DNA of 64,000 nt. It comes from Amphiura filiformis (lineage: Eukaryota > Echinodermata > Ophiuroidea > Amphilepidida > Amphiuridae). Location: positions 33,001,796 to 33,065,795 of the forward strand of contig NC_092629.1 in assembly GCF_039555335.1 (NCBI RefSeq), given 5' to 3'. The notes beneath the pieces are model-generated. The model made no database searches. It saw only the letters and a list, made by a program, of their open reading frames with translations, and had not been told where the DNA came from. Shown piece by piece: positions 2,284-63,264 of this stretch (positions within the stretch are counted from its first letter, which is position 1; every line of letters begins with the position of its first letter). The position numbers and the translations under genes were made by a program.

Positions 2284-2553
2284 CCAATTAGTTTGCAATT
2301 TCTGTAAGAAACCAGGGCATACAGTGACCATGTGTCGGAGCTTAAAAGCCAAACAAGATGCACAAAAACAGCAGCAAACTGCCAGTAATACTGTAGGATG
2401 TGCAGTGTCACTTGAGTCAAAGAAACAAGTCAGTCAAATCAAAAAACAAGAATTCCCACAAAAGAGAGGTGAAACAGACAAGGTGTGTGAAGAATTTGAA
2501 CCATTTGTGTTAGAGGGAGTAGTATCACTTGGTGATAATGGTAGTCCAAAGCC
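2284..2553 (+). pseudogene. Gypsy gag C-terminal fragment with zinc knuckle
   Basis: The frame reads a CCHC knuckle, CNFCKKPGHTVTMC (C-X2-C-X4-H-X4-C), followed by a Gln/Lys-rich stretch that runs toward the protease. In retroelement Gag this knuckle binds RNA. The N-terminal capsid part is missing, and the frame is cut downstream by the non-LTR insertion, after about 90 codons. The opposite side of the cut resumes near 5410. Confidence 0.75.
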
Positions 2554-5245: not shown

Positions 5246-5342
5246 CTCTTTGCATATCATGAACTATACAACACTGATGAACTGTTTTTGTTATTAATTG
5301 TTATAATATGTTTGTATCATTGTACATTGGTTGTTTTTTTGC

Positions 5343-5381
5343 AAAGCGCCATGAGCGTCTCTCGACGGATACCGGCGCTTT
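5343..5381 (+). other. 3' stem-loop of the L2/CR1-like element
   Basis: AAAGCGCC at 5343-5350 pairs perfectly with GGCGCTTT at 5374-5381 around a 23-nt loop, about 10 bp before the (ATT)n tail. L2/CR1-type RTs recognise a 3' hairpin and repeat tail, so this is the probable RNA recognition signal. Confidence 0.75.
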
Positions 5382-5389
5382 ATTAAGTG

Positions 5390-5415
5390 TACATTATTAT
5401 TATTATTATTTATTA
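5390..5415 (+). repeat. (ATT)n tail of the non-LTR element
   Basis: A short ATT microsatellite marks the 3' end of the L2/CR1-like copy, immediately before Gypsy protease codons resume. Confidence 0.8.
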
Positions 5416-7214: not shown

Positions 7215-7321
7215 TCATAACGTTCTGTGTAAGGTTACATAATTCTTCCTTTCATGTATGCTGCCAGTTCGAGGCTCTCCCCGCACATAGTGCATAATGG
7301 CGGAACCGTGCAAGTAGCGAA
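7130..7321. mobile_element. 192-bp fold-back MITE inside Gypsy pol
   Basis: The left arm from TTCGCTACTTGCACGG and the right arm ending CCGTGCAAGTAGCGAA are reverse complements for about 70 bp, around a 45-50-bp centre. It interrupts pol between GEVDY and IIKTPGR. Its length is a multiple of three and the two flanks share a frame, but it carries a stop. TA or ATTAT flanks both ends; neither gives an unambiguous target duplication. Confidence 0.75.
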
Positions 7322-7322
7322 T

Positions 7323-16280: not shown

Positions 16281-16354
16281 TTGCTGGCAGGCGGATTCGA
16301 ACCAACGATATTGACATTACCAGTCTGATGCTCTAACACTGAGCTATGCCATCA
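16281..16354 (-). repeat. tRNA-like segment
   Basis: On the minus strand, GATGGCATAGCTCAGTG (A box) and GGTTCGAATCC (B box) occur with 3' GCCTGCCA. The anticodon loop would read GGT (Thr type), but the anticodon stem has mismatches, so a pseudo-tRNA or SINE head is more likely than a working gene. Confidence 0.45.
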
Positions 16355-32928: not shown

Positions 32929-33105
32929 TTAATAGTGAGGCCAGGTTTGTATTTCTGCATACAGGGCGTCACCGGGACAATCTGTAGGCTTGTACCCCTC
33001 TCTCATGTCCCGATGTCCACGTAGGGTGTAATCAGATCGAATCTTTCCTAACTGTACTCCACAGGCTATCATGTTTTGTGCCAAATCACGAGCGGCTTGG
33101 TTGGG
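32929..33105 (-). CDS. PGRP domain, terminal exon
   Basis: The acceptor CTATCTCCAG precedes PNQAARDLAQNMIACGVQLG. The exon contains LRGHRD, whose His is a zinc ligand, and TDCPGD, whose Cys is the ligand that marks amidase-type PGRPs. It ends IQTWPHY then TAA, the normal C-terminus of short PGRPs. The exon is 177 nt and begins in phase 0, matching the donor at 36067. PGRPs bind bacterial peptidoglycan; those with the full zinc set cleave the amide between MurNAc and L-Ala. Confidence 0.92.
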   Translation of the reverse strand, partial: PNQAARDLAQNMIACGVQLGKIRSDYTLRGHRDMREGYKPTDCPGDALYAEIQTWPHY

Positions 33106-36066: not shown

Positions 36067-36215
36067 CAACTCGCTCCTGAAATTACCGATAAAAGAGAAC
36101 GCCAGACCAACGTCATTATAGCCTTTGGTATGAGCCCCTTTTCGATCCCAGCCTCGTCCTTCGTAGGCATTGCCATCTTCACCAATTAGAAAACTATAAC
36201 CGATATCCTTCCAAC
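36067..36215 (-). CDS. PGRP domain, middle exon
   Basis: The acceptor CTCCTAG is followed by a split Gly codon and WKDIGYSFLIGEDGNAYEGR. The Tyr of AYEGRGW is the conserved tyrosine of the PGRP zinc site. GAHTKGYNDVGLAFSFIGNF follows, the conserved core of the domain. The donor is GTACGT after FRSEL, in phase 0. The 149-nt exon joins both neighbours without a frame change. A hydrophobic MVRHFQWLLFILILL frame just upstream is intron, not a signal peptide. Confidence 0.92.
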
Positions 36216-37613: not shown

Positions 37614-37820
37614 CCTTTGTATTCATGTGATAGTTCTGAATGCTCCGCACTCTTGAACTGCATTCTGATTGGTTGGAACACGGAAGCCCGTCCGTATGGT
37701 GTATAATACTGTAAAATACTGATCCCGCTAAGTTCTTAACGGTGGCCGTTGAATTCTCAGCTCCCCAATCGTTACGACTGATTACAGTAACTTGTTGGCA
37801 CGGGTCATCAGCTTCACCGT
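37614..37820 (-). CDS. PGRP domain, first domain exon
   Basis: The acceptor TTTTTCACACAG precedes a split codon, then GEADDPCQQVTVISRNDWGA, the standard start of a PGRP domain. SVFYSIIHHTDG supplies the first zinc-binding His, and CSNQSECSSRV the conserved cysteine pair. The donor GTAGGT follows HMNTKG. The exon is 207 nt, phase 1 on both sides. No signal peptide is encoded here, so an upstream exon is required. The preceding mini-exon at 41056 ends in G, which would make the split codon GAC (Asp). Confidence 0.92.
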
Positions 37821-38119: not shown

Positions 38120-38435
38120 CGGCGGCGTAGCTGGGATTTTTTCCAGGGGGGGAGGCAAGCCTGTATGGGGCGGGGGCCCAAAGCCACCAAATTTCCCTGC
38201 ACTTGGGGGGGGGGGGGGGGCCAAATAGAAAATTGTTGCCAGGCTTTTTATAATAATCGTATGGTATTGCATATCGTATGGATTCCCCATCTCTCTGCCC
38301 CTCCTCTCCCTCTCTCTCCTCTCTTTTTTCCTCTTTCTCCCTCCTTTTTCCTCTTTTTTCCTTGCACTAGGGGCCGGGGGCCCTAATTGGCAATTTTTGC
38401 CAGGGGGCAATTGCCCCCCGGCAGCTACGCCACTG
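38120..38435. mobile_element. hAT-type MITE (316 bp)
   Basis: Ends CGGCGGCGTAGCTG and CAGCTACGCCACTG are near-perfect inverted repeats of the CAGTGGCGTAG kind common in hAT elements. A perfect 8-bp duplication TTCCTGAG flanks it (38112-38119 and 38436-38443). G/C homopolymers inside. Non-coding. Confidence 0.88.
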
Positions 38436-41055: not shown

Positions 41056-41094
41056 CTGTGCTTGTTGGCAGGGTAGTACGTCCATTCGTTTCCT
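41056..41094 (-). CDS. Mini-exon 9 (39 nt)
   Basis: The acceptor TTATTAACGCAG and donor GTAAGAGG bound 39 nt encoding, with the borrowed base, x-ETNGRTTLPTST. Phase 1 on both sides. It is the last mini-exon before the PGRP exons and follows the 43.1k IgGFc exon, after the relic at 41.7k. It lies between two Penelope-like scraps. Confidence 0.7.
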
Positions 41095-41164
41095 CTGCGT
41101 TAATAAAGGGAAAAGAACGTTGTAAACACATAAAAGAAGATCGTCAAACACGTGACTGACATGT

Positions 41165-41465
41165 GCAGGAGAACGACCATATTATAGACTGGGAAGAGGC
41201 TAAGGTAGTAGGTAAAGAGGCTGATAGATACAAGCGGTGGATTAAGGAGGCGATAGAGATCAGAAAACAGGAGACCATCATGAACAGGGACGAGGGGCAA
41301 TACATTCTCAGTCACGTGTTTGACGATCTTCTTGGATAGAGAACTGGCAACCACGTTGCTAAGCAACCATCAACATCAGTGGTACACAGAAGTTCGTCAC
41401 AACAACAATAGTGTAAAAAAGATGTCTGGTAGACATCGAAACGTCCACAGTGAGTACTGTTTATT
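41165..41465 (+). pseudogene. Penelope-like C-terminal fragment and 3' region
   Basis: The frame reads DWEEAKVVGKEADRYKRWIK, AIEIRKQETI and MNRDEGQYILSHVFDDLL to a stop near 41337, typical of the C-terminus of Penelope-like elements. About 60 codons remain. The following 120 bp, including GATGTCTGGTAGACATCGAA, resembles their 3' flanking region. Confidence 0.65.
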
Positions 41466-41689
41466 GGACTAGAAATAAGAAAATTCTACTATTATGTTTC
41501 ATAACAGTCCTGAGGAACATGTTCAGCGTTGTAAACACAATTATAGGAAAACAATGAATTTTAACAATAGGCATATACCAATTAAGCTCGAAAGGTGGTC
41601 ATCATGCATGAAAGAATTAGTTGGGGGAATTACGTGTTACTTGAATGTTGGTACATTGTTGTTATATGGTTCTTAAGGTAGCACAATTT

Positions 41690-41707
41690 AGCTACCATTC
41701 GGTTCCT
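41690..41707 (-). pseudogene. Truncated mini-exon relic
   Basis: The acceptor ATTAACGCAG and first codons (AG GAA CCG AAT GG) of the mini-exon are present, then the sequence jumps to GTAGC-TAA intron-type DNA. The donor is lost, so it cannot act as a normal exon. Confidence 0.65.
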
Positions 41708-41886
41708 CTGCGTTAATATGGTTAACAAAGGAAAAAACAAAACATAGTAAACACAATGTAGGGAAACAATAGGCATACGTACCAATTAAGCTCATATGAA
41801 AGGAGGTCATCATACATCAAAGAATTAGTTGGGGAAATTACGTGTCATTTGGATGTTGGTACATTATTGTTGTTATATAGTCCCTA

Positions 41887-42774
41887 CTCCCAATTCCAGA
41901 AAAATGTAGCACTATTTTTTTGGCATTAAAAATATTAGCAAGTTATGCCAAATGAAACATAGCTCAATCTAGAAATAAAAGAAAAAGTTCACTATTTTAC
42001 TAATTTCTTGACAAAGAGCCAAAACCATGCATTTTCGGCATGTTTTCTGACAATCGAGTCACATAAATCAAAGACTTGGAACAAGTCTAAGCATTCAAAA
42101 TCTTGAGTATAGGCTGAAATTTTGCTCTAATTTTCATTTTTTTTGTGTGTTACTTGAATTAAATTGATGCTTATAAGAAAGAAACAAGTCTTTTTCAAAA
42201 ATTAGAATGTATAAACTGAAGTTAGTCTTAGTACAGAGGCATCAGCGTGGCACACTGGTTAAGGTCTTTGCCTTTGGTGCGAGAGATCCCGGATTCGATT
42301 CCCCGCAGGACCTAAAAAAATCTCCGCTCTCCCCGTGGTTCATCTGGTAATGGCGGGGCGGATGATCCATGATTAAAAGACCTCATTTACAGGCGGTTCC
42401 GATCAGGGTAACGCCCGATTGTCGGCTACACTAGCCTGTCCTGTAAAAATACGACGACCAGGTATCTACGGCGACCCCCTTCGTTCACCAGGTCACCTGG
42501 CCGAGGTATCGTCAACGTTATCTCCAAGATTTCAGCTATTAATGCCTAACTATGCTCGTCTTTGGGCTTGATTGTTACAGCATACGAAAAACACACCAAA
42601 AAAACGTATGTTATTGGCCCTTATCTCCAAAAATTGGCCAAATATTAACATTTGACTTTTATTGCTAGTAAGGACTAGCTAAAGGATTAGGATTTAGCTA
42701 TGTTTCATTTGGCAAAACAGGATAATATTTTTTAATCCCAAAAAAATAGTGCTGTATTTTTCTAGAATGGGGAG
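41887..42774. mobile_element. 888-bp inverted-repeat MITE
   Basis: It starts CTCCCAATTCCAGAAAAATG and ends with the near-complement CTAGAATGGGGAG, between TA dinucleotides. The inner arms contain CACTATTTTTTTGG and its complement, and GCCAAATGAAACATAGCT inverted near 42700. A SINE lies inside. Confidence 0.78.
42240..42600 (+). mobile_element. Putative tRNA-derived SINE
   Basis: GTGGCACACTGGTTAAGG (A box) and GGATTCGATTCCCC (B box) are followed by a unique GC-richer body to about 42600. The segment interrupts an otherwise symmetrical MITE. No second copy is present in the window to prove amplification. Confidence 0.5.
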
Positions 42775-43088
42775 TAAGGTAGTACAATTTTCTGTCTTTA
42801 TATAGTTCTTCATAGCCACTTTGGTCTCGTCTGATATGAACTGGATTTCGCTATACATCATTTGGTCAATTAATATTGATTAACAATAGTCTTTGATCAC
42901 TCGTTTTTACATTACTATTTTATTTTCACTTGCGGCCAAACTTATATATAATATGTGCTTTACTTTTTATGGCTGATCAAATCATCCTGTATATCGTGTA
43001 TTTGAAACTTCAGAAAAAAACATCAGTTTACGTCATGTGTTTAAATTGACAAGCACCAAGCATAAACAAGCAGCTTTGTCACACTTAC

Positions 43089-44315
43089 TTCTAAAATATA
43101 CGTCTGATGCCGGGTAGACGTAGGATGAAGCGCACTCACCACTGCAAATACCATAAACGTAAACAAAGAATAGGGCATTCGGGTTCGCATGCTCTATATA
43201 ATGTTCTCCTGTATCGATGCCTTTCCTGACGCAACACATTTCTTCATTATCTGAAGAAAGCTGATCATCCCAAACTGTTGTTCGATTGTCCAATAAGAGT
43301 CCATTTATGTATGTACACTCCATAACAACATTGATATAATAGAGGGCTAGATGGTCCCTGTTATTATTGCGAAATCCTTTATACCGAAATACAGAGAATG
43401 TTACATTACTGGTGTATGATGTGACCGGTGGAATAACGATCATTGATTCAAAATTTTGACGGCCTCTTCCAGTAAGGTACTGCGAGACCATAACAGGTTG
43501 GTCTGATATCAGTGTGAGGACTTTATCACCTGTTCCTTCGTAAAAGTCTTCTGGAAGAATAGTTACCGTATCAATATTAGAGATGTGCAAAGTTGTGAAC
43601 ATAGTTCCTGCATAAACTCTGAAAACATACAGGTCTGAATAGAGAAACGGTGCTAAAACATAGGTATGTCCCCAACTGCTGACTGGTGGAAGTTGCTCGA
43701 GTGCTCCGTCACCGTATCCAATGTTTTCGTTCCGTGTTGCTACGATACCACCAGCTATCACAGCAACTGGCTTGTTACTTTCTATTCGTGTTCCGGACAG
43801 GTCTTCACCATCACTTCCGTCAAACCTATAACTCTCGTACTGTCTGAGATGATAAATATTATTTTGTTGGAATTTTTTCCTAACTGAAACGACTGTATCG
43901 GGAGAAAGCGCGGTAACACAGAAGAAAGAAGTGTCTGGCGTGTATGTTGCCACATAATACAAATTTCCTAAACGCGAAGATGAATAAACAGTAAATATAT
44001 CACTTTCGATATATCCAGTATCTATAACATGCACAGTTATCATTCCCGAGGATCTTATTATACCGGTTACATTTTGCTTTCCACCGTCAAGATTAAGACG
44101 AAATTCAAATGGCAACGTGATATCGGCGTGATGTTCCCGGTCGATGGTATGATAACTCGCATAATTGAGTGAAGGAATAGAGAGCGTCACAGCAACAGGA
44201 TCTTTTGACGGTGTTGTGATAAATACGTGTGGGTAAAGACGTTTGTACGTAACTGTCGGGCCAACTGTTGGGACAGTAAACACATATTCATTCCTCATTT
44301 CGCTGTCGTCTACTC
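43089..44315 (-). CDS. IgGFc-binding domain exon 3 (409 codons)
   Basis: One 1227-nt exon, phase 1 on both sides, from acceptor TTCTTCTGGTATAG to donor GTAAGT at 43083-43088. It matches the FCGBP N-terminal IgGFc-binding family: NEYVFTVPTVGPT, PHVFITTPSKDPV, RLGNLYYVATYTPDTSFFCV, SNKPVAVIAGG, LEQLPPVSSWGHTY, PVMVSQYLTG and VIPPVTSYTSNVTFSVFRY. A Cys-containing tail (CSGECASSYVYPASDVYF) precedes the donor. In vertebrates the domain is part of mucus-associated FCGBP. Reading through the donor would add about 18 residues and a stop. The frame is intact. Confidence 0.9.
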
Positions 44316-44757
44316 CTATACCAGAAGAAATGATACATAAAAGGTAACATTAACATGGCAGCAAGTTCGGTAACTCGATAAACATAGTAAACAATATCTA
44401 TATAAGCCGTAAGATACAGGCAAATGTCTTTCATTAACGCGACGGTTGCCAGTCCGTAATAATTATTGGATATTCACACTTTCAGTCCATTTGCAATGCG
44501 CAATGGAAACTCAATGAAGATTCGAAACCTCAAAATTTTAATAGATTCTTTACTTTATTTTCTATTATTTGATAACTACAGGTATTATCGACACATCAGG
44601 TGCACAAGTGAAACAAAGAAAACCTACAAAATGTCGCCGTGATATTTTAAATATTTTTGCCCATTTTTTAAATTTCTACCCTCAATCCCTTCAAACTCGC
44701 CTCTTCTCCTCTTATAATCTAGACAAATCCCGGCTATGCCGCTGCAATGCCTCTTAC

Positions 44758-44796
44758 CTGTGCTTGTTGGTAGGGTAGTATGTCCATTCGTTTCCT
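44758..44796 (-). CDS. Mini-exon 8 (39 nt)
   Basis: Encodes x-ETNGHTTLPTST, phase 1-1, donor GTAAGAGG. The acceptor reads CATAACGTAG instead of the usual TTAACGCAG but keeps AG. It lies about 440 bp upstream, in transcription, of the 44.3k IgGFc exon. Confidence 0.72.
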
Positions 44797-45476
44797 CTAC
44801 GTTATGAAAGGAAAAACACAAAACGTAGAAAACACAATATAGAATAAAACAATACAATCTAACAATAGGCATATACCAATATTAAGCTCATATGAAAGGT
44901 GGTCATCATGCATGGAAGAATTAGTTAAGGGGGAATTAGATGTTATTGGGATGTTGGTACATTATTGTTGTCATAATAGTCCCTAAGGTAGCATAATTCT
45001 GCACGTTTCACTCTTCTAATATATAGCTTTTCATAACCACCTGGTCTCGTCTGGTCTATGTCATTCTTACACTTTTCTTTAATTCTCAGAAAGGAATCAA
45101 ATTAGCTCTTTATTTGGAAGCAAATCCTTTTAGTGTATGAAAAACGTTCTGAAAATGTGTACAAATATCGAATTTCTTGCTGCACAAGTCACGGAAAGGG
45201 GAGAAAAGGGGTCCCGCAAATATAAGTAAATAATGCGCGATGGAAACTCAACCAAGATTCGAAACAAATTTTAATAAATGCTTTATTATATTCATTAAAA
45301 TATTATGATAATTATATGTATTATTGATACATCAGATGCTCAAGTAAAACAAAGAAAATGTACAAAATGGCCGCCCTGATATTTTAGATATTGTCAACAA
45401 ACTGTCCCCCTCCCCCATAAAACTCGCCCCACTCCCTCTAGAAAAATCCCGGCTGTGGCACTGCAATGCATCTTAC

Positions 45477-45506
45477 CTGTGCTTGTAGTTCGTACATTCG
45501 TTTCCT
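45477..45506 (-). CDS. Mini-exon 7 (30 nt, 9-nt deletion)
   Basis: Encodes x-ETNVRTTST, phase 1-1, between TTAACGCAG and GTAAGATG. It lacks nine bases relative to the 39-nt form, so the frame is kept. Confidence 0.72.
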
Positions 45507-46853
45507 CTGCGTTAACAAAGGAAGAAAAACAAAACGTAGGAAAACCAATGCAGAGAAACAATACACTATAACAATAGGCATGTACCAATTAAGCTCATAT
45601 GAAAGGTGGTCATCATACATGGAAGAATTGGTTGAGGGAAATTAGGTGTTGCTGGGATGTTGGTACGTTATTGTTGTTATATAGTTCTTAAAAGGTTAGA
45701 CGCTATTTTAAACTGTTGCGATTTGGTAGTTCACAGCATCTTGCGAACGGTAGTGAGCTTTGGGGCAAAAATTGCATTTCTCATTTCATAGCGAGAGCGT
45801 AGAAGAATTCAAATATCACAGACATATTTTTGTAGGTCCTGTGGTTCTTATATGTTGTAAAGAGGGCTGAAACCACAACACTTTTGTAAAACGTAAATAA
45901 CTCATTAACAACAATAAATCAAGCATGTTTTCAAAATATATGATTTGTAGAATGAACTTTTGCAAAACATCAAAGTGTTATTTTCCAATAATATATTGAT
46001 TTAGATAATGAAAATAGATTGTTTGGCTATTTCGACCAACAATACCTAGTCTACCCTAAAGGCAGCACAATTTTGCACTCTTCAGTCTTCATGTAGCTCG
46101 TGATAACCACTCTGGTCAAGTCCTGTATGGACTGGATTTCGCTTTAAAATATTGTTAAAATAATATTGATTAAACATAGCCTTTGAACGCTTGCTTTTAC
46201 ATGAATTTTTTATTTTTACTTATGGGAAAACTTATATCGTAAGGGGGGTGACATTCTATCCATATACTTGGTGTCCTCGCGTAGCGACACTTGATACAAG
46301 AAGGTCGTAAATGCTTGTAGAATTAGGATTTTACACGAGGACAGGAAAGTATCGGGATATTATAAAAAATTACAACAAAAAGTAAAATTCTCATAAAAGA
46401 ATCAAAATTGCTCTATATTTGGATGTTAGAAGTAAATCCTTTTAATGTATAACAAAAGTTTTGAAAAGGTATACAGATATCACATTTCTTTCTGCACATG
46501 TCACGGAAAAGGGAGGAAATTTGTTCTTCACATTATTTTGTGTTCCACATTAATAAAGGGGTCATTTTCATACTTTCAGACCAATTGCAATGCGCAATGA
46601 TAATGCAACCAAGACCCGAAATCTACCCAAATTTTAATAGATTCTTTACTATATTTACTACTTATTGAGATCATTTCTTGTATTATTGTAAAATCCGATG
46701 CACAAGTGAAACAAAGAAAACGTACAAAAATGGCCGCCATGATATTTGAGATATTTTGCCCATTTTAATCAAATTTCTACCCCTCCCTCCTTGAAACTCG
46801 CCTCCCTACTCCCTCTAGAAAAATCCCGGCTATGCCACTGCAATGCCTCTTAC

Positions 46854-46892
46854 CTGTGCTTGTTGGCAGGGTAGTACATCCGTTCGATTCCT
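46854..46892 (-). CDS. Mini-exon 6 (39 nt)
   Basis: Encodes x-ESNGCTTLPTST, phase 1-1, between TTAACGCAG and GTAAGAGG. A Cys replaces the usual Arg. Confidence 0.72.
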
Positions 46893-47339
46893 CTGCGTTA
46901 ACGAAGGAAAAAACAAAACATAGTAAACACAATGTAGGGAAACACAAAAGGCGGCCATCATGCATGAAACAAATAGTTGGAGGAATTAGGTTTTCATGCG
47001 ATGTTGGTACATTATTGTTCTTATTTAGTAGTACAATAATTATGCACTCTTCAGTCTTCATAGAGCTCTTTATAACCACTATGGTCTCGTCTGGTATGGA
47101 CTGGAATTCGCTTTATATCATTTTCGCAATTAATATTGATTAAAAATAGTCTTTGAACGCTTGTTTTCACATTACTATTTTATTATAACTTATGGCCAAT
47201 CTTATATATAATTATGTGCTTTACATTTTACGATCATCCTGTATATCTTGTATTTGAAACTTCAGAGAAAACATCAGTTTACGTCATGTGTTTAAATTGA
47301 CAAGCACCAAGCATAAACAAGCAGCTTTGTCACACTTAC

Positions 47340-48608
47340 TTCTAAAATATACGTCTGATGCCGGGTAGACGTAGGATGAAGCACACTCACCACTGCAAAT
47401 ACCATACACGTAAACAAAGAATTTGGCATTCGGGTTCTCATGCTCTATATAATGTTCTCCTGTATCGATGTCTTTCCTGACGCAACACATTTCTTTATTA
47501 TCTGAAGAAAGCTGATCATCCCAAACTGTTGCCTGATTGTCCAATAAGAGTCCATCTATGTATGTACACTCCATTACAACATTAATATAGTAGCTATCCG
47601 GATGGTACTCACTCGAGTAATCACTTGATTCAAATGATATTCCTTCATACCTAAATACTGAGAATGTTACATTACTGGTGTATGATGTGACTGGTGGAAT
47701 AATGATCATGGATTCAAAATTTTGAATGCCGTTTCCAGTATAGTACTGCGATACCATGACTGGTTGGTTCGAGAGAAGTATGAGAACTTTATCGCCTATT
47801 CCTTCGTAAAAGTCTTCTGGAAGAATAGTTACGGCATCATCATCAGAGATGTGCAAAGTTGTGAGCATAGTTCCTGCATAAACTCTGAAAACATACGGGC
47901 GCGCATAGAGAAACGGTGCTAAAACATGGGTGTGTCCCCAACTGCTGACTGGTGGGAGTTGCTCGAGTGCTTCGTCACCGTATCCAACCCATCCAGTATC
48001 CAACCCAACCCGTCCTATTGCTGCGATACCACCAGCTATCACAGCAACTGGCTTATTGCTTTCTATTCGCGTTCCAGACAGGTCTTCACCACCACTTCCA
48101 TCAAACCTGTAACTCTCGTACTGTCTGAGATGATAAATATTAATTTGTTGGAATTTTTTCCTAACTGAAACGACTGTATCGGGAGAAAGCGCGGTAACAC
48201 AGAAGAATGAAGTGTGTGGCGTGTATGTTGCCACGTAATACACATTTCCTAAACGCGAAGATGAGTAAACAGTAAATATATCACTTTCGATATATCCAGT
48301 ATCTATAACATGAACAGTCACCATTCCCGATGATCTTATTATACCGGTTACATTTTGCTTGCCATCGCCATGATTAAGACGAAATTCAAATGGCAACGTG
48401 ATATCTACGTGATGGTCACGGTCGATGGTACGAAATTTCACATTATTGAGCGAAGGAAAAGAGAGCGTCACATTAACAGGATCTCTTGACGGTGTTGTGA
48501 TAAATACGTGTGGGTAAAAGGAAATCAAGCCATAGCCGAAAACCATGGTCGGACCAACTGTTGGGACAGTAAACACATATTCATTCGTCATTCCATTGTC
48601 GTCCACTC
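47340..48608 (-). CDS. IgGFc-binding domain exon 2 (423 codons)
   Basis: One 1269-nt exon, phase 1 on both sides, from acceptor TTCTGATTTAG to donor GTAAGT at 47334-47339. It is a close paralogue of the 43.1k exon with a few in-frame insertions, for example VGYGDEALEQLPPVSSWGH preceded by an extended GRVGLDTGW segment, and FESSDYSSEYHPDSYY near the C-terminal side. The frame is fully open. Intron sequence on both sides is also shared with the 43.1k and 59.6k copies, showing segmental duplication of exon plus flanks. FCGBP-type family; binding partner unknown. Confidence 0.9.
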
Positions 48609-48949
48609 CTAAATCAGAAGAAATGATACGTAAAAGGTAACATAAACATGGCAGTAAAACCGATGAAGATAGTAAACAATATCTATATAAGCCGTAAGAT
48701 TATATTTAATTAACGCGACGGTTGTCAGTCCGTAATAATTATTGGATATTCACACTTTCAGTCCAATGCGCAATGGATACATGTATTATCGATGCATCAG
48801 ATGCACAAGTGAAACAAAGGAAACGTACACAATGGCCGCTGTGATATTTTACGCCAATTTTTGTCAAATTTCTCCCCCTCCATCCCTTCAAACTCGCCTC
48901 TTTACTCCCTCTAGACAAATCCCGGCTATGCCACTGCAATGCCTCTTAC

Positions 48950-48997
48950 CTGTGCTTTTTGGCAGGGTAGTCATGGTAGTACGTGCATTTGGTTCCT
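48950..48997 (-). CDS. Mini-exon 5 (48 nt, 9-nt insertion)
   Basis: Encodes x-EPNARTTMTTLPKST, phase 1-1, between TTAACGCAG and GTAAGAGG. Nine extra bases give the added residues; the frame is kept. It lies directly upstream, in transcription, of the 48.6k IgGFc exon. Confidence 0.72.
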
Positions 48998-49447
48998 CTG
49001 CGTTAACAAAGGAAAACCACAAAACGTAGTAAACAAAATATAGGAAAACAAGAATCTAACAATAGATCTAATAATCTAACAATACATGTATTAAGCTCAT
49101 ATGGAAGGTGGTCATCATGCAAGAAATAATAAGGGTTTTTTTTTGGGGGGGGGAGATTATGTGGTATTGGGATGTTGGTACATTATTGTTGTTATTATAG
49201 TTCTTAAGGTAGCACAAATATTATGCACGTTTCAATCTTCATACCCACTCTGGTGTCGTCTGGCATGAACTGGATTTCGCTATATTTCATTCGTTTCAAA
49301 AATTAGTCTCTGAACGCTCGTTTTTTTTTTAATTCTCAGAAAGGAATCAAATTTTCTCTTTATTTGGAATTAAATCCTATTAATGTATGAAAAAAGTTCT
49401 GAAATGGTGTACAAATATCAAATTTCTTTCTCCACAAGTGACGAAAA

Positions 49448-52400
49448 TAATCCTGGTCCTGCTCAAGACCTGGTCTACAACTCATCCGCCAGAGAGTTTG
49501 AAAGTTGATTTGTGTTGGTGGACCACTCATCTTTAAGAATCACACAGGTGGATTTTTCAAAGCCCTTGCCAATAAATAAATCCAAGATGGCCGCCGGTGG
49601 CCATATTGAAAATATATAATTTCAGCCTCTAACCCCACGGGTATGTGTAATACCTCATTTTAGGGATTTTTGCACGCGGGGAATCAATTTCTGACATCAT
49701 TTTTACGATTGGAGGTCAAGGTCACGTGATAAGATCAAGTTAAATGTCACAATTCAAGATGGCCGCCAGTAACTACATGAAAGTCTACATTTTCAACCAT
49801 TCGCCATTGAAGAATACATATTCCCCCCTTTTGGTGGTGGTGGTGGTGGGGGGGGGGGGGTAACCTTAAAGGTGCAGAGAATAATGATTTCTAACGTTAT
49901 AATGGGTCGTCAAGGTCATATGTTGCAGTCAAGGCCTAGGTCAGGAATGCGCAAAACAGCTAAAAGTTCCCTTATGTACACATTTAGAAAACTAATAGTC
50001 ATAAAATTACTATGTTTTGCAATTCAGCTCATCTTTTATTTCAACTTTAATACTTCTTTTCAACTTGAATACTTCTTGTTTACCAGAGGCCCAATATTAA
50101 TCAGTCCATTCCCGATTAATCATAATTGATCAATATCAAAGACCCTAGACACAAAATCTACCATTTAAGCGTGCGTCTCATACTTGCGATATTGAGCAAT
50201 ACATAAAAATCTTTTATAGATTGATATTTAATGACATTGACACAATATTGTACACGTTAATGACGGCCAAATCAACAGCACTGTTCTCACCAGCTCTACA
50301 GATCCTCTCTCCCTTCTTAATGCTCTGCTCTCTGTAGCTGTCAAATACTATGTGAGTCATTGCCAGTGATGGACAAACTCGGTGAGCACTCTGGAATACT
50401 TCTTGAATGACTCCACCAAAGTTTGGAAACGCAGATCGCAGATTAGGGAATTGTCGTATTTTCGACATAAAGTCAATCACAACATGTGTTGTTTGAGTAT
50501 TATCCCTCTTGAAATTTGGTAGTCTCCAGGGGTGAGATTACTTTCAAGCTCAGCAACCATTTGCGCTTTGTCAGGCTTTGTTGTAAAGTCCCCCAGAAAT
50601 ATTGGGCTAGACTGGAGAAGGTCATGTGCATATATCTCTTCTGGACCAAGTCCACGTAGTTTAGCAATCTCTGCCTCCCTCTGTGCAGATGCAATGTCCT
50701 TCGTAGAAACATTGGCCTTGGTTGTTTCATTGCTGGTTTTGTTTGTGTCACCCTGTGAGTTGAAGGCTGGAAGAGTCACCTTGGATATTGTGTAACTCAG
50801 CTTCTTGGATCTGTGTACGTAACACTCTTCACGAAACTTCAGATATGCTGCGTCACCATTCTCCAGTGCCTTCAGGAATCTTACCTTGACGATGTCATCG
50901 ACGATTTGTTTTGTTACAAAGTTGAAAAGTGGAACATCAGGTTCCCGCACTATGAAAGGGTTTTCCCGTGCCTTTACGAAGTCTAGAAGTCGTACCACAT
51001 TTTGGTCGAAGATAAGACCCCTGCGTCCCCCAATCTCATGCTGTATGGATGTTTCCAAATGATCCATGAGTCGAACAGTGGTGAGTAACTTGAGAAGATT
51101 GCTGATTGCAAGGATCTCATGAAATAGAAGTCCAAACTCGGCCACGACATCAGCATCTCCAGAGCTTCCAACAATTACATGTCCACCTGGTCCCTGTGAG
51201 AATCTGTTCTGGGACTGTTCCAGCTTTAAGTCCCTTGCCACAGCAGTGAGTATTGCATCAGCTCGGTCCTTCACAACAAAATACCCCATATGGAACCGGC
51301 GGTAAAGGGTGGGGTAGGTGACCTCCAGAACCTGAATCCTCTCCAAATACCATGATGCATACCGCAGATAGTTTATGGCATCAAACTCACGTAAGATCCC
51401 CATGGATGTCTTCACTGTACCAACATGCAACGGCCAGTTGCCATCCCGGTCTGCAACGACCAACTGCTTGATGAGAGAAACGATCTTGCAAAAACTCATA
51501 AAATACTTGCATAATTCTGATTTCTCCTGACACCCTAGGGCAAATGCTTCCAATTGTTGACGGAGAGCCACGGCAGCAACAGATACCTGCTCAAACTTGG
51601 TGACGCATTCCTCACGCTTCATGGTTTGCAACATATTCTTGAGCTCAATAGCTGACTGGACAAAGGGAATAGATGCATGGTCATTGGACTGCCAGAACGC
51701 ACTCCACATGAGTGAGTCAAGGACCTCTGAAACAATAAGCATTCCCTTCAAAGACCTGACATAGTGACCACCAGAGAGAACCGTAGAAACTGTTTTCGGC
51801 CCAAACACTTCACTTTCAATAAGGGCATCGGTCATACCACTGCCAGTAAGGTACTTTCCTGCACATCTAAGGAGGACCTTGGCAAAGTGAAACATTCCCA
51901 GCATGGGAAATAGGTCATTAAAAGTGCCTGGTTCATTCATGACTATATCAACTACTATGTGATACACACCCTCATCAGAAACTATAGCCATAGCTTCTTG
52001 ATTCAACTGCTCTCGGCATGCCATGCAACTCTCATCAGTGGAACATTGGCTGTTGTGATAAGGGCATGGATACCACCCCAAGGGGGTAACTCACCCGGGG
52101 CAGGAGCTGAGTGTGGCAGTCCACAGCGGACAAATGAGGAACTCTGTATTTTGGACCTCTCAACAGCAATCTCAGCATTAGATAAGATTTCACATTGGTA
52201 TTTTCCACCAGTGTAAAGTTGGATGGCAAGGTGGGTCTTACAACAGGTTTGTAGCATGGGGTACCTCCTGACAAGAAAGTTTTTCTTTCGAAGGACAAGA
52301 GAATTTGGAGAGGCCAGTGCTTGATACACAAGGTTTTGACTTAGGTGGGAAAGTTGTATCCTGGTAAAGTGCTTGAGCTGTATAATGTTTGCTTTGTGTA

Positions 52401-53255
52401 CCTTTTGACTTGTCATCAAAGTCTTCATTATTAAAGGCACCAAATGCCCAGCCCTCGTTTAATTCTTTTACTAAACATCCTGTCTGATTGAAGCTGCCCT
52501 TTTAATGCTATCTTTACCGGCTTGTTTCGGTTGAGTTATTTTTTTGGTCTTGTCATGTTTCTGGCAAATGATACAGTTTGACACATACAGGGGGAAACTT
52601 CGGGGTGCTACTCTCTGCCATTATCTTTGTAAATCGCAATGTAGGATCTGGAAAAGTTAGTGGAAGATATCAAGGGGAGGGCTCTCATCCACACTGTAAA
52701 ACCGAAAGAAAAGATTATGAAATTAGCTTTGTTGATATGAACATTGTACATATATATTCAATACTATATTCTGGTTTAACTTGTTAGCATGTCTGTGTGT
52801 ACATGTATTATAGACTGATTTATGACTTTATTTTGACTTAAACTCATGAAAAGAATGTCAGAGATAAAACAAAAAACAAGGTATTACAAACTTCTGCGAA
52901 AAGTGGCAGGAAATCATAATTTTCCATATGGCTACTGGCGGCCATCTTAGATTTTGACCTTGAACTTGATCTTATCACGTGACCTTGACCTCTAATCGTG
53001 AAAATGATGTCAGTAATGGATTCCCCACATGCAAAATCCCCTAAAACAAGGTATTGCACATACTTCTGTGGTTAGAGGCTGAAATTATATATTTTCAATA
53101 TGGCCACCGGCGGCCATCTTGGATTTATTTATTGGCAAGGGCTTTGAAAAATCCACCTGTGTGATTCTTAAAGATGAGTGGTCCACCAACACAAATCAAC
53201 TTCAAACTCTCTGGCGGATGAGTTGTAGACCAGGTCTTGAGCACGACCAGGACTA
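49448..53255. mobile_element. 3.8-kb inverted-repeat element carrying a gene
   Basis: Bases 49448 to about 49790 recur inverted at about 52920-53255, starting TA(A/G)TCCTGGTC at both outer ends. The arms contain CTCAAGACCTGGTCTACAAC and AAGATGGCCGCC. The flanks are mini-exon intron sequence (CACAAGTGACGAAAA on the left and AAAGGGGAGAAAACTTGTTC on the right), so the whole unit was inserted there. TA or AAA may be the target duplication. The only large coding region inside is the unknown gene at 50292-52440. Confidence 0.75.
50292..52440 (-). pseudogene. Unknown multicopy-type gene, frame-broken
   Basis: A 534-codon frame (52081-50477) continues in another frame to about 50292 (IDFMSKIRQFPNLRSAFPNF, HIVFDSYREQSIKKGERICR), ending at a GTGAGA donor-like site. 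Upstream, PCYKPVVRPTLPSNFTLVEN and an earlier segment lie in two further frames. Notable parts are CPYHNSQCSTDESC, FPMLGMFHFAKVLL, GSGMTDALIESEVFG, DRDGNWPLHVG, INYLRYASWYLERI, RFHMGYFVVKDR and ARDLKLEQSQNRFSQGPGG. The layout recalls uncharacterised proteins that are multicopy in cnidarian and other invertebrate genomes; I know no function for them. At least three frame changes suggest decay. It lies inside the inverted-repeat element, so it may be transposon cargo. Confidence 0.6.
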
Positions 53256-53430
53256 AAAGGGGAGAAAACTTGTTCTTCATATTTGAGTTCCGTAAAGGTG
53301 AATCAAAGAAAATGTACAAAATGGCCGCCCTGATATTTTAGATATTGTCAACTTCTCCTCTTCCCCTATAAAACTCGCCTCCCCACTCCCTCTAGAAAAA
53401 TCCCGGCTATGCTATTGCAATGCCTCTTAC

Positions 53431-53469
53431 CTGTGCTTGTTGGCAGGGTGGTACGTCCATTCGTTTCCT
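53431..53469 (-). CDS. Mini-exon 4 (39 nt)
   Basis: Encodes x-ETNGRTTLPTST, phase 1-1, acceptor TTTTAACGCAG, donor GTAAGAGG. It matches mini-exon 9 in protein sequence. Confidence 0.72.
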
Positions 53470-54568
53470 CTGCGTTAAAAATGAAAGGAAATGCAGGGAA
53501 ACAATACAATCTAACAATAGGCATGTACCAATTAAGCTTATATGAAAGGTGGTCATCATGCATGGAAGAATTAGTTGAGGGAATTACGTGTTACTGGGAT
53601 GTTGGTACGTTATTGTTGTTATATAATTCTTACGTTTAGACACTATTTTAAACTGTTGGGATTTGGTAGTTCACAGCATCTTGCGAATGGTAGTGAGCTT
53701 TGGTAAACCTTGCATTTCTCATTTCATAGCGAATGCGTAGAAGAATTCAAATATCACAGATACACTTGTGTAGGTCCTGTGGTTCTTGAGTTATGTTGCT
53801 TCGACCAACAATACCTATTCTACCCTAAAGGCAGCATAATTTCGCACTCTTCAGTCTTCAAATAGCTCAATCACTCTGATCTCGTCTTGTATGGACTGGA
53901 TTTCGTTTTAAAATATTATTAAATTAATTTTGATTAAACACAGTCTTTGAACGTTCGTTTTCACATGATTTTTTTATTTTATTTTTTACTTATGGCAAAA
54001 CTTATATCGTTTGGGGGGATGACATTCTATCCAGATACTTGCTGTCCTCGCGTAGCGACGCTTGTTACAAGAAGGCCGTAAGTGCTTGTAGAATTAGGAT
54101 TCTACATGAGGACAGGAAATTATCATGATATAAAGGTTACATCATAAAATCAAATTATCAAAAAAAGAATCAAATTTGCTATATATTTGGAAGTAAATCC
54201 TATTAATGCATAAGTCACGGAAAAGGGAGGAATTTTGTTCTTTATATTATTTTGTGTTCCACAAATATTAATAAAGGGGTAATTTTTATACTTTCAGTCC
54301 AATTGCAATGCGCAATGATAATGCAACCAAGACCCGAAATCTCCCCAAATTTTAATAGATTCTTTACTATATATATTATCATTGTGATAATTTCATGTAT
54401 TATTGTAAAATCAGATGCACAAATGAAACAAAGAAAACGTACAGAAATGACCACCGTGATATTTGAAATATGTTTGCCCATTTTTGTCATATTTCTCCTC
54501 TCCCCATAAAACTCGCCTCCCCACTCCCTTTAGAAAAATCCCGGCTATGCCACTGCAATTCCTCTTAC

Positions 54569-54607
54569 CTGTGCTTGTTTGCAGGGTAGTACGTTCATTC
54601 GTGTCCT
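54569..54607 (-). CDS. Mini-exon 3 (39 nt)
   Basis: Encodes x-DTNERTTLQTST, phase 1-1, acceptor TTAACGCAG, donor GTAAGAGG. Confidence 0.72.
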
Positions 54608-54661
54608 CTGCGTTAACAAAGGAAAACAAAACAAAACGCAGTAAACACAATGTAGGGAAAC

Positions 54662-56070
54662 GCCGTAATTGAAGGGGAGGCGATCTTTTGTGCGTAATTA
54701 TAGAGAGCCAGGGGATTTACTCTATCATTATAAAAAAATATTTGAAGAAATCAGAGAGCCCTAGGAATAAAAAACTGTGGTGTAATTCACGCCAGACACA
54801 CAATTTTATTTAATGCCAAAAATGAATTTTTGTAATCGATCAAAAACCAAACGTTTTATACCAATTTTGAATTTAGCCTGAATCCGTAAATATGGCACCT
54901 CTCGCCCTTTTTTAGGTCAAGGCTGTTTTTACCATTATGCAGCAAACTATTGTTGAAGAAATTTCACATACATGTTCAAAACACTCGTTTTAACTGTCAT
55001 TAATTTGGTATAAAATGCTAATAAACAGTTCTTGTCTTTGGAGAGATCGAGAAAGACATCACACTTAATAAACTAATGTTGTTACTCCACCCTACACGAT
55101 CCATTTTCGGGCCCATCACCGACTAGTTACTCCTAACCACAGAGGAGTAAGATAAGACAGAGCGCGTACCACCAGTCAAAGTCTCCGCCTCATCCGATAA
55201 TGAGGGCCGATTGTTCTGTGAAATGCGACAGGCGAGACTGCTACGCAATTACCGCGTATTTTCTTGGTCTATCGCGTAATCGCGAAAGCACGCAACGCTC
55301 TATCGCGGATACGCGAAGGCACGCAGCGCTGGCGTGATTGTTAGACACCACACGATCGAACAATCGGCCCTCATGAATATGCGAGAACTTACACCATACA
55401 ATACACGGGGACTTTGACTGATGGTACGCGGTCTGTTTCTCTTTCGTCCATGCTCCTAACTATCTCTGTAATAACAGGCCTACAGAGTGGTATTGCCAAA
55501 AAATGTATCCAGAGCAAATTATAAACTGAATTGAAGTATTAACAACAGAGTTAAAAACTATACTAAATAACTCCTTTATATTGATAAGATTAGTCACACT
55601 GTGCACAACTGAACACAGTATATTAGTCTTATATTTACAAGGTGAGACACACTGTGTACAATTGTACACACCATTTAAAAAAAAATACACCACACATGTT
55701 TGAAGCATTTGATCAAAAATAGTGTTCCCTGTGTTCTACAGGTCTTACACTAACCCCCTGACCAGAATTTAGCTTGTCCACAATGTTATTTCATATAAAA
55801 TTAAAAACGGAAAGTACCAGTCTTTTGGCAATGTGCTGAAGTGGGTGATGCCCTCTTTGATTGTGAAAAGTGACATTCAGCTAGGCGAGGGCGCTCTGCA
55901 CTGGAGGATAGCACATGTATGCACAATTTTGCACATGGTGTTTCTTTGCAGTAATAGGCTTCCCCTGGCATACAGAGCGCAATATAAGTTCACGTGTACA
56001 ATTGTACACAGTATGTACGAAGGGGATTATTATGTGTTGATTTTCACACGCTTGGATTCATCAAAACATA
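54662..56070. other. 1.4-kb insertion in a mini-exon intron
   Basis: Unit similarity breaks at about 54661 and resumes at about 56070. The inserted DNA contains an inverted-repeat element at 55155-55440 and short GTACAATTGTACAC palindromes near 55660 and 56000. No coding region recognised. Confidence 0.6.
55155..55440. mobile_element. MITE with about 30-bp inverted ends
   Basis: GCGCGTACCACCAGTCAAAG on the left is inverted on the right (GACTTTGACTGATGGTACGC). GAGGGCCGATTGTTC and GAACAATCGGCCCTC form a second inverted pair inside. GC-richer than its surroundings. Confidence 0.75.
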
Positions 56071-56701
56071 ATAATGATTAAACATGGTCTTTGAACGCTC
56101 CTTTTCACATTACTTGCTTTATTTTTACTTCTGGCAAAACTTATATATCTTGTTATATATCTATAACATGTTGTCTTTGCAAAGTGACGCTTGATACACG
56201 AATGCCATAATTGCTCTTATTGAGAATTACGATTCTACGCGAGGACAGGAAAGTATCAGGATAGAATATCAAAATTAATTTTTTTTTAATTCTCAGAAAG
56301 GAATCAAACTTGTTCTATATTTGCAAAGCAAATCTTTTTAATGATAATGACAAAAGTTATACAACTATCACATTGCTTTCTGCACAAGTCACGGAAAGAA
56401 AATAAACTTGTTCTTCATATTTGGGTCCCGCAAATATAAGTAAAGGGTCATTTTCACACTTTTAGTGCATTTGTAATGCGCAATGGAAACTCAACCAAGA
56501 TTCGAAACATCACCAAATTTTAGTAGATGTGTTATTATATTCATTAAAATATTATGATAATTACATGCATTATTGATACATCAGATGCTCAAGTGAAACA
56601 AAGAAAATGTACAAAATGGCCGCCCTGGTATTTTAGATATTGTCACCTTTGTCCCAATCGCCTCCCCACTCCCTCGGCTATACCACTGCAATGCCTCTTA
56701 C

Positions 56702-56740
56702 CTGTGCTTGTTGGCAGGGAATTACGTCGATTCGTTTCCT
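56702..56740 (-). CDS. Mini-exon 2 (39 nt)
   Basis: Encodes x-ETNRRNSLPTST, phase 1-1, acceptor GCTAACGCAG, donor GTAAGAGG. Confidence 0.72.
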
Positions 56741-57787
56741 CTGCGTTAGCAATACAATGGAAAAAACAAAACGGAGGAAAGGCAAAATCAAAACGTAGGA
56801 AAGACAATGCAGGGAAACAATACAATTTAAAATAGGCTTGTACAATTAAGCTCATATGAAAGGTGGTCATCATGCATGAAAGAATTAGTTCGGGAGATTA
56901 TATTTTATTGGGATATTGGTACATTATTGTTGTTTTATACTCCCTAATAGTATAATTTTATACTCCCACATTATGTACTCCGTCTTCGTATATGACCAGA
57001 ATGGTCTCATCTGGTATGGACTGGATTTCGTTATACATCATTTGGTCCATTCATATTGATTAAACATAGTCTTTAAACGTTCGTTTTCACATTACTTATT
57101 TTAATTTCATTTATTGCAAAACTTATATTTCGTTTGGATAAAATTGACATTCTATCCAGATACTTGGTGTCATTACGTAGCGGCATTAATTGATACAATG
57201 TCGTAAGTGCTGTAGAATTAGGATTCTACGCGAGGACTTGTGTCAGGATAGAATATCAAAATGTTTTGCGAAAGTTCATTCTACAAATCATATACTTTGA
57301 AAACTTGCTTGATTTATTGTTGTTAATGCGTTATTTACGTTTTATAAAAGTGTTTTTTTTTAATTCTCAGAAAGGAATCAAATTTGCTCTATATTTGGAA
57401 GTAAATCCTTTTAATGTATGATAACAGTTCTGATACGGAAAGGGGCGGAAATTTGTTCTTCATATTATTTTGTGTTCAGCAAATATTAGTAAAGGGGTTA
57501 TTTTCATACTTTCAGTCCAATTGCAATTCGCAATGGAAACGCACTACCAAGATCCGAAACATCCGCAAAATTTAATAGATTCATTACTTTATTTACTATT
57601 ATTACGTGTATTATTTATTAATTTATCAGATGCACAAGTGAAACCCAAAAAAAGATGTTTTAAATGGCCGCCGTGATATTTAAGATATTTTTGCCCATTT
57701 TTTAAAAATTTCTCCTCTCCCTCCTTGAAGCTCGCCTCCCCACTCCCTCTAGAAAAATCACAGCTATGACACTGCAATGCCCCTTAC

Positions 57788-57826
57788 CTGTGCTTGTTGG
57801 TAGGGTAGTACGTCCATTCGGTTCCT
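57788..57826 (-). CDS. Mini-exon 1 (39 nt)
   Basis: Encodes x-EPNGRTTLPTST, phase 1-1, acceptor TTAACGCAG, donor GTAAGG. It is the first mini-exon after the 59.6k IgGFc exon, whose last base A would make the split codon AAG (Lys). Confidence 0.72.
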
Positions 57827-59553: not shown

Positions 59554-60786
59554 TTCTAAAATATACGTCTGATGCCGGGTAGACGTAGGATGAAGCGCAC
59601 TCACCACTGCAAATACCATACACGTAAACAAAGAATTTGGCATTCGGGTTCGCATGTTCTACATAATGTTCGCCTGTATCGATGTCTTTCCTGACGCAAC
59701 ACATTTCTTTATTATCTGAAGAAAGCTCATCATCCCAAACTGTTGCCTGATTGTCCAATAAGAGTCCATCTATGTATGTACACTCCATTATAACATTGAT
59801 ATAATACCGAGCTGGATGGTATCCAGTAGATTCAAATGTTATTCCTTCATACCTAAATACTGAGAATGTTACATTACTGGTGTATGATGTGACTGGTGGA
59901 ATAATGATCATGGATTCAAAAGTTTGAATGCCGTATCCAGTAAGGTACTGCGATACCATGACTGGTTGGTTCGAGAGAAGTATGAGAACTTTATCGCCTT
60001 TTCCTTCGTAAAAGTCTTCTGGAAGAATAGTTACGGCATCATCATCAGAGATGTGCAAAGTTGTGAGCATAGTTCCTGCATAAACTCTAAAAACATACAG
60101 GTCTGAATAGAGAAACGGTGCTAAAACATAGGTATGTCCCCAACTGCTGACTGGTGGAGTTGCTCGAGTGCTCCGTCACCGTATCCAATGTTTTTCGTTC
60201 CGTGTTGCTACGATACCACCAGCTATCACAGCAACTGGCTTGTTACTTTCTATTCGTGTTCCGGACAGGTCTTCACCATCACTTCCGTCAAACCTATAAC
60301 TCTCGTACTGTCTAAGATGATAAATATTATTTTGTTGGAATTTTTTCTTAACTGAAACGACTGTATCGGGAGAAAGCGCGGTAACACAGAAGAATGAAGT
60401 GTCTGGCGTGTGTGTTGCCACGTAATACACATTTCCTAAACGCGAAGATGAGTAAACAGTAAATACGTCGCCTTCGATAGATTCAGAATCTATAACATGA
60501 ACAGCCACCATTCCTGATGATCTTATTATACCGGTTACATTTTGCTTTCCATCGCCAAGATTAAGACTGATTTCAATCGGTAACGGGATATCGGCGTGAT
60601 GGTCACGGTCGGTGGTATGACAACTCTCATGATTGAGCCCAGGAATAGACAGAGTCACATTAACAGGATCCCGTGAAGGTGTTGTGATAAATACATGTGG
60701 GGGTTCCCATTCCCCAGTCGGATAAAATGTTGGGACAGTAAAAACATATTCATCATGTTCAATCGCCATTCCACTGTCGCAGATTC
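59554..60786 (-). CDS. IgGFc-binding domain exon 1 (411 codons, frame disturbed)
   Basis: A 1233-nt exon, phase 1-1, from acceptor CTTCTGATATAG to donor GTAAGC at 59548-59553. The N-terminal half reads DEYVFTVPTFYPT, HVFITTPSRDPVNVT, RLGNVYYVATHTPDTSFFCV and SNKPVAVIAGG. The C-terminal half reads HISDDDAVTILPEDFYEG, VIPPV-type IIIPPVTSYTSNV and CSGECASSYVYP. Between them one base is gained (an A5 run against A4 in the 43.1k copy, at about 60191) and one lost about 40 bp later (CTCC against CTTCC, at about 60160). The altered frame meets a TGA between the two. Total length stays divisible by three. Either this copy is inactive or there are two sequence errors in short runs. Confidence 0.85.
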
Positions 60787-61972: not shown

Positions 61973-62092
61973 CAGTATGACAATTTTGCTCATCCGAGTA
62001 GTCGCCACAATCATTGTCACCATCACATTCCCATGATCCTCGAATACAGAATCCATCAGAACAACGAAACCCATTGCATGGCACATATCTAG
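61973..62092 (-). CDS. LDL-receptor class A domain exon B (40 codons)
   Basis: A 120-nt exon, phase 1-1, acceptor CACCACCTACAG, donor GTAGGT. It encodes a complete LDLa module: [20 protein letters not shown] then [13 protein letters not shown], with all six cysteines and the acidic D-G-D, D, S-D-E calcium site. LDLa modules bind ligands in a calcium-dependent way on secreted or surface proteins. The final split base G joins GA of the 60786 exon as Gly, linking LDLa to IgGFc in frame. Confidence 0.92.
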
Positions 62093-63141: not shown

Positions 63142-63264
63142 CAGGACATAAGTTAGATTGCTCATCCGAGTAGTCGCCACAGTCATAGTCTCCATCACAT
63201 ACCCATGATCCTGGTATGCAGTATCCATCGGGACAAAGAAACCCATCGCATGGCGGATCTCTAC
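63142..63264 (-). CDS. LDL-receptor class A domain exon A (41 codons)
   Basis: A 123-nt exon, phase 1-1, acceptor CACCGCCTACAG, donor GTAAGT. It encodes [20 protein letters not shown] then [15 protein letters not shown], a complete six-cysteine LDLa module with the calcium-site acidic residues. It and exon B share about 150 bp of upstream intron, so exon plus flank was duplicated. Its donor base G joins CT of exon B as Ala. The gene continues upstream beyond the window. Confidence 0.92.

Follow-up and report, generated by a model that had tools for sequence, protein, structure and literature searches.

The stretch of DNA analysed here, called the window, is a 64,000-nt segment of the brittle star Amphiura filiformis genome (NCBI RefSeq assembly GCF_039555335.1, contig NC_092629.1, positions 33,001,796 to 33,065,795 of the forward strand; positions below are counted from its first letter). 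Its minus strand carries what is most likely one large gene for a secreted mosaic protein, in which EGF and low-density lipoprotein receptor class A (LDLa) modules precede three IgGFc-binding (IgGFc) domains and a C-terminal peptidoglycan recognition protein (PGRP) amidase. The IgGFc domains and the amidase are joined by three linkers encoded by five, three and one very short exons, giving the layout IgGFc1-[5]-IgGFc2-[3]-IgGFc3-[1]-PGRP. We consider it probable that these nine mini-exons are real and most likely constitutively spliced coding exons, which specify disordered, Thr/Ser-rich hinges that have been lengthened by duplication and have a mechanical role.

The mini-exon array and its host gene

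Each of the nine mini-exons encodes a variant of EETNGRTTLPTST. Seven are 39 nt long, one is 30 nt (45477-45506) and one is 48 nt (48950-48997). A first-pass annotation of the window had proposed nine minus-strand segments with an AG acceptor, a GTAAG donor and phase 1-1, and all of these are present: the donor is GTAAG in 9/9, the acceptor is AG in 9/9 (CAG in eight, TAG in one), every unit is phase 1-1 and every length is divisible by 3. Any single mini-exon could therefore be skipped in frame, as that annotation had also stated. In the direction of transcription, linker 1 is built from the units at 57788-57826 (E-EPNGRTTLPTST), 56702-56740 (E-ETNRRNSLPTST), 54569-54607 (E-DTNERTTLQTST), 53431-53469 (E-ETNGRTTLPTST) and 48950-48997 (E-EPNARTTMTTLPKST). 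Linker 2 consists of the units at 46854-46892 (ESNGCTTLPTST), 45477-45506 (E-ETNVRTTST) and 44758-44796 (E-ETNGHTTLPTST), and linker 3 of a single unit at 41056-41094 (ETNGRTTLPTST), which makes the join from IgGFc3 to PGRP. Within the 48-nt unit, 9 nt are nearly duplicated (ACTACCATG ACTACCCTG), which offers another route to a longer hinge. The introns around the mini-exons are long, from 0.3 to 4.4 kb.

A scan blind to the repeat motif, which asked for a pyrimidine-rich acceptor, a GT donor in one of five allowed forms and an open phase-1 frame rich in Thr, Ser or Pro, picked out seven candidates in the 64 kb, every one of them on the minus strand. All seven are among the nine mini-exons; the units at 48950 and 56702 were missed, presumably because they fall under one of its cut-offs. 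When 4-kb blocks of the minus strand were dinucleotide-shuffled, the same scan found 0.08 candidates on average and never more than two over 60 shuffles. The seven matches are not independent because the mini-exons duplicate one another, and the scan thus points to an unusual kind of feature rather than to nine independent events. Searching the window with the mini-exon unit recovered nine full copies and a truncated tenth that retains the acceptor half only (about 41695-41770, minus strand, nhmmer E 1.6e-12), all within the IgGFc gene. Two minus-strand fragments scored below threshold (56787-56823 and 41523-41553). The only other match (38122-38191, E 0.0023) is on the plus strand, in sequence that looks G-rich by eye.

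The best database relatives are A. filiformis proteins. A spliced model running from mini-exon 48950 through mini-exon 41056 (897 residues, five of the nine mini-exons, no stop) is 97% identical over its full length (873/897) to a 1297-residue protein, P0012. Databases name the gene product only as 'uncharacterized protein'. P0012 starts with the C-terminal portion of IgGFc1 and continues through five mini-exon peptides to IgGFc2, through three more to IgGFc3 and through a last one to PGRP. Seven of its nine peptides are identical to those of the window and two (those of 48950 and 45477) are one residue apart, the order being read by eye. Since P0012 holds all nine peptides, the mini-exons are modelled coding exons, and their predicted order and frame are correct. 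The array is real, and it is ordinary in mechanism. The first-pass reading of the units as coding exons of a Thr/Ser-rich repeat that spaces IgGFc domains is borne out by this protein. Its placement of the units between IgGFc exons stands for eight of the nine but not for 41056, which separates IgGFc3 from the PGRP exon, and its expectation that the mini-exons had been missed by annotation does not apply here, as all nine peptides are already in P0012.

P0012 and the window differ in the first residue at two junctions, with K in the window replaced by N before 41056 and E by D at 53431. The first of these gives the junction between IgGFc and mini-exon the sequence N-E-T, an N-glycosylation sequon that is also found in the related proteins P0002 and P0014; the window has K-E-T. 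The published A. filiformis nanopore assembly is described as having a heterozygosity of 3.22% and a quality value (QV) of 31.6 (PMC11310086), which makes both allelic variation and residual errors plausible.

The exons that flank the array on the minus strand were assigned from domain matches, splice sites and database proteins. The 5' part of the gene in the window contains two phase 1-1 LDLa exons, one at 63142-63264 (Pfam PF00057, splice sites, match to database protein P0005) and one at 61973-62092 (match to P0005, splice sites); the 38-residue fragment of the latter had no Pfam match at E 0.001. Three phase 1-1 exons encode the IgGFc domains: IgGFc1 at 59554-60786, where PF17517 matches both halves, IgGFc2 at 47340-48608 and IgGFc3 at 43089-44315. 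The four open reading frames (ORFs) involved, two of which are the halves of IgGFc1, score 133.9, 120, 69.5 and 45.6 bits against PF17517 (cutoff 25.6). PGRP exon 1 (37614-37820), with an acceptor in phase 1, follows mini-exon 41056, to which it is fused in P0012; its ORF alone gave no Amidase_2 match. PGRP exon 2 (36067-36215) lies in an ORF that matches Amidase_2 at E 3.9e-5 (24.4 bits, just under the 26-bit cutoff), and PGRP exon 3 (32929-33105), with the stop codon, forms the coding end and is 98% identical to the P0012 C terminus. Summing the exon coordinates in the window, PGRP exon 3 included and 5' exons outside the window left out, the mini-exons account for 351 of about 4853 coding nt. 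P0005 covers EGF, six LDLa modules and the first part of IgGFc1, and its contig is equal in size to that of P0012. The two models would represent one gene split at IgGFc1, the split falling in an exon that bears indels.

In P0012 the IgGFc (PF17517) and Amidase_2 (PF01510) domains both exceed their Pfam cutoffs, the latter with 59.4 bits against 26. In PDB, the PGRP part is most similar to entries 4z8i and 4zxm, named 'peptidoglycan recognition protein 3'. The motifs IHHT, GYSF, GHRD and TDCPG are present in the PGRP exons of the window and in P0012 and align with 4z8i; they match the zinc-binding His, His and Cys and the active-site Tyr of catalytic PGRPs. On these motifs the domain is a putative zinc amidase. 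An IgGFc-PGRP fusion is seen in P0012 and, truncated and by similarity only, in a second protein, P0013.

Duplication history and constraint

Homology between the mini-exon units extends over as much as about 1 kb of intron. A tree of eight copies recovers an A pair (54569 and 46854) at 99%, a type B (56702, 53431 and 45477) at 99% and a type C (48950 and 44758) at 100%; with nine copies the values are 91%, 98% and 95%. Unit 57788 was typed A by similarity alone, with identities of 0.81 and 0.83 to the A pair and 0.80 to 45477, and sits on no supported branch. Mini-exon 41056 has no reliable placement because its flank differs. With 57788 tentatively taken as A, the order in the gene reads A-B-A-B-C-IgGFc2-A-B-C-IgGFc3-41056. 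The shared order of A-B-C-IgGFc2 and A-B-C-IgGFc3 firmly indicates duplication of a block made up of three mini-exons and one IgGFc exon. The number of spacer units also differs between linkers and paralogs, and length has therefore been changed by duplication of DNA.

Such intron homology might instead belong to a dispersed intronic repeat or mobile element whose exon look-alikes are never spliced in, an idea to which the truncated copy and the transposon ORFs in the window also lend themselves. However, the peptides stand at the expected place in five protein models (P0012, P0013, P0001, P0002 and P0014), and within the window the unit is found only in the IgGFc gene, the plus-strand match being G-rich. 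We set the idea aside because the protein models contain the mini-exon peptides; largely refuted by P0012, it now seems very improbable.

All nine intact copies lack a stop codon, a frame-breaking indel or a lost splice site. How much of this would be expected without selection was gauged by a neutral simulation, in which the units drifted at intron rates along the copy tree under four settings that differ in the copies and in the alignment columns after the donor. The probability that AG and GTAAG are kept in all copies was 0.00185 with eight copies and columns 6-139, 0.022 with eight copies and columns 6-64 (the setting that favours our interpretation least), 0.0008 with nine copies and columns 6-64, and 0.0055 with six copies and columns 6-249. 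Mini-exon 41056 was excluded from three of these settings, and 48950 and 53431 were additionally excluded from the six-copy one; the nine-copy setting, which still includes 41056, is the least trustworthy. An initial version of the simulation, which gave lower probabilities, was set aside: its 41056 branch was inflated by non-homologous flank. Both length changes among the mini-exons are of 9 nt, and gap runs in the flanks are multiples of 3 in 6/19.

Several observations weigh against reading the array as constrained, constitutively spliced exons. Retention of AG and GT alone had probabilities of 0.026, 0.109, 0.017 and 0.046 under the four settings in the same order, so that the core dinucleotides by themselves reach P = 0.11 in the most conservative one. 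Amino acid constraint on the mini-exons is weak, with a pN/pS of 0.82. Over the initial 60 nt of intron after the donor, conservation is about equal to that of the exons (0.10-0.15 versus 0.13, six copies) and is therefore not exon-specific. In the window's IgGFc1 exon the frame is disrupted by two small indels separated by about 30 nt, which may reflect sequence error or gene decay. P0012 is itself a predicted protein, so that transcription of the mini-exons as modelled is something we infer; exons as short as these are seldom predicted without read support. P0012 also starts within IgGFc1, the 5' part being in P0005, and joining LDLa to PGRP in one transcript is likewise our reconstruction.

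The conserved 60 nt after the donors contain G-runs, possibly a splicing enhancer.

These data also bear on whether the mini-exons are spliced but neutral, riding on intron duplication, with linker length and sequence hardly mattering. A pN/pS of about 0.8 would fit such passengers, as would a copy number that varies across linkers and paralogs and introns that are conserved together with the exons. Against them stand the nine intact copies, although the absence of stops alone is uninformative in this respect (P 0.46-0.68, that is, expected in 46-68% of simulations), the Thr plus Ser content of 40-47% in the three P0012 linkers and the truncated tenth copy, which shows that copies can be lost. 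We regard neutral passengers as quite improbable. Overall, the constraint seen acts on splicing and frame rather than on exact sequence, as would be expected of a hinge and, in part, of a passenger too.

Spacer number and spacer properties

Mini-exon peptides follow directly after an IgGFc domain in four paralogs, which together with P0012 are spread over contigs of 97.7, 67.5 and 68.9 Mb. P0013 has two such peptides and, after its second IgGFc domain, one more, followed by the start of a PGRP-like sequence that was recognised by similarity to P0012 and gave no Amidase_2 match. P0001 has three, the last of which continues into sequence that is intronic in the window, and P0002 has one. P0014 has about four by eye, followed by a transmembrane-like segment and kinase domains. 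A search with only the mini-exon tail of P0001 as query, with limits on candidate length, returned only P0001 among 18 candidates. P0014 and a further protein, P0018, combine an IgGFc domain, a Thr/Ser-rich stalk, a transmembrane-like segment (by eye) and kinase domains and are apparently IgGFc receptor kinases; P0018 additionally carries an SRCR domain. The paralogs differ in mini-exon number, whereas the window and P0012, the two sequences compared, both have 5/3/1 mini-exons per linker.

As every mini-exon is symmetric and skippable, cells could in principle vary their number by splicing and so adjust hinge length, which is the view taken in the first-pass annotation. A related IgGFc gene on another contig offers a hint of this: its isoform X3 (P0015) has two copies of a TTVTELPDSYTPP repeat, and its isoform X2 (P0016) shares the N-terminal part and has one copy and a sushi domain. 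P0001 is likewise labelled isoform X2. However, the Thr/Pro-rich repeat of P0015 and P0016 looks unrelated to the mini-exon by eye, so that the only hint of a splicing-adjusted spacer number comes from a different gene with a different repeat. P0012 includes all nine mini-exons and bears no isoform label, and P0013 has none either; the inclusion of all nine in P0012 leans towards constitutive use. We therefore think regulated variation in mini-exon number unlikely and favour constitutive splicing.

The linkers of P0012 span about 13 to 68 residues, and the Thr plus Ser content given above compares with 17% in IgGFc2. In an AlphaFold2 model of the paralog P0001, based on 23 aligned sequences, the IgGFc domain is β-rich and confidently predicted, with predicted local distance difference test (pLDDT) values mostly above 85, and residues 433-525 fall below 50; the spacer starts at 434. 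This is as expected for a disordered spacer, with the proviso that the P0001 tail is partly read-through sequence. The two features of a mucin-like spacer, Ser/Thr richness (in P0012) and predicted disorder (in P0001), are thus both found, and O-glycosylation of the spacers is plausible from their composition. A PDB sequence search with an IgGFc exon as query gave 0 matches, and a PDB fold search with the P0001 model assigned no fold, the TM-scores in the best 50 rows being at most 0.17 (query) and 0.21 (target). PDB entry 6xi3, the sole fold match below E 0.001 among the rows listed (E 5.6e-5), was rejected on TM-scores of only 0.09 and 0.11.

A mechanical role for such hinges can be outlined. 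Each mini-exon would add 10-16 residues of disordered, Thr/Ser-rich chain. With all hinge-side junctions in phase 1, unequal crossing-over could gain or lose units without breaking the frame, and repeated duplication, including that of the block of three mini-exons and an IgGFc exon, has produced linkers of unequal length. Their likely function would be to separate the IgGFc modules and the amidase from one another while leaving them mobile, which would let several contact a surface simultaneously.

Comparison with known systems and other features of the window

One of the two closest parallels is the hinge of human IgG3. IGHG3 is described as having 2 to 5 hinge exons that encode 32 to 77 residues in steps of 15 (PMC8674132); these exons are located in a roughly 200-bp repetitive element (PMC8674132; PMC4202688). 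As in IgG3, short symmetric hinge exons have been tandemly duplicated between folded domains of an immune protein, and exon number sets the length. Unlike in IgG3, the flanking domains are PF17517 and PF01510 rather than immunoglobulin constant domains, the brittle star array spreads nine exons over three linkers, its introns measure 0.3-4.4 kb, and a domain exon takes part in a higher-order block. By analogy, the array might be what corresponds to the IgG3 hinge in an invertebrate, with hinge-exon blocks acting as a ruler, set in the germline and perhaps by splicing as well, for the reach of multivalent IgGFc-PGRP defence proteins. The same hinge would form the stalk of IgGFc receptor kinases such as P0014, and individuals would differ in exon number in response to microbes. 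We offer this full analogy as a speculation that is probably wrong. IgG3 exon number varies among people; the window and P0012, the two sequences compared here, have an equal count.

DMBT1/gp340, a defence protein with repeated binding domains, also has Ser/Thr-rich spacers. These SRCR-interspersed domains (SIDs) of 20-24 residues separate its SRCR domains, are presumed to be extended by O-glycans and vary in unit number between alleles (PMC3100851). In the brittle star the binding domain is IgGFc rather than SRCR, up to five mini-exons make a spacer and an amidase forms the C terminus. Schistosome micro-exon genes (MEGs) are reported to hold about 80% of their coding sequence in symmetric exons of 6-36 bp and to encode secreted proteins by varied splicing (PMC5825161). 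The A. filiformis gene resembles them in having short symmetric exons in a secreted protein but is not a MEG: its mini-exons are 30-48 nt long, are homologous to one another and make up only 351 of about 4853 coding nt. FCGBP/IgGFc-binding proteins and PGRP amidases have the same Pfam domains; in the brittle star the IgGFc domains are strung on mini-exon hinges and end in PGRP. Among the literature matches listed we recognised no paper describing an IgGFc-hinge-PGRP combination, and the terms 'IgGFc' and 'ophiuroid' occur together in no paper of the literature searched. The repeated-hinge-exon solution best known from IgG3 thus appears in an echinoderm IgGFc-PGRP mosaic whose duplication steps are still readable in its introns, and the natural linkers of P0012 would be useful for relating linker length to multivalent binding in innate immunity.

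The window holds a few other features. A 537-residue ORF at 50477-52090 on the minus strand, with no Pfam match, lies within the 4.4-kb intron between mini-exons 53431 and 48950. A tRNA model matches 16282-16353 on the minus strand with 44 bits, marking either a gene or a tRNA-derived repeat. On the plus strand, retroelement remains extend over 2523-8990, where endonuclease and reverse transcriptase ORFs are followed by an integrase and a reverse transcriptase/RNase H ORF, and a Tc3-type transposase ORF occupies 29018-29842.

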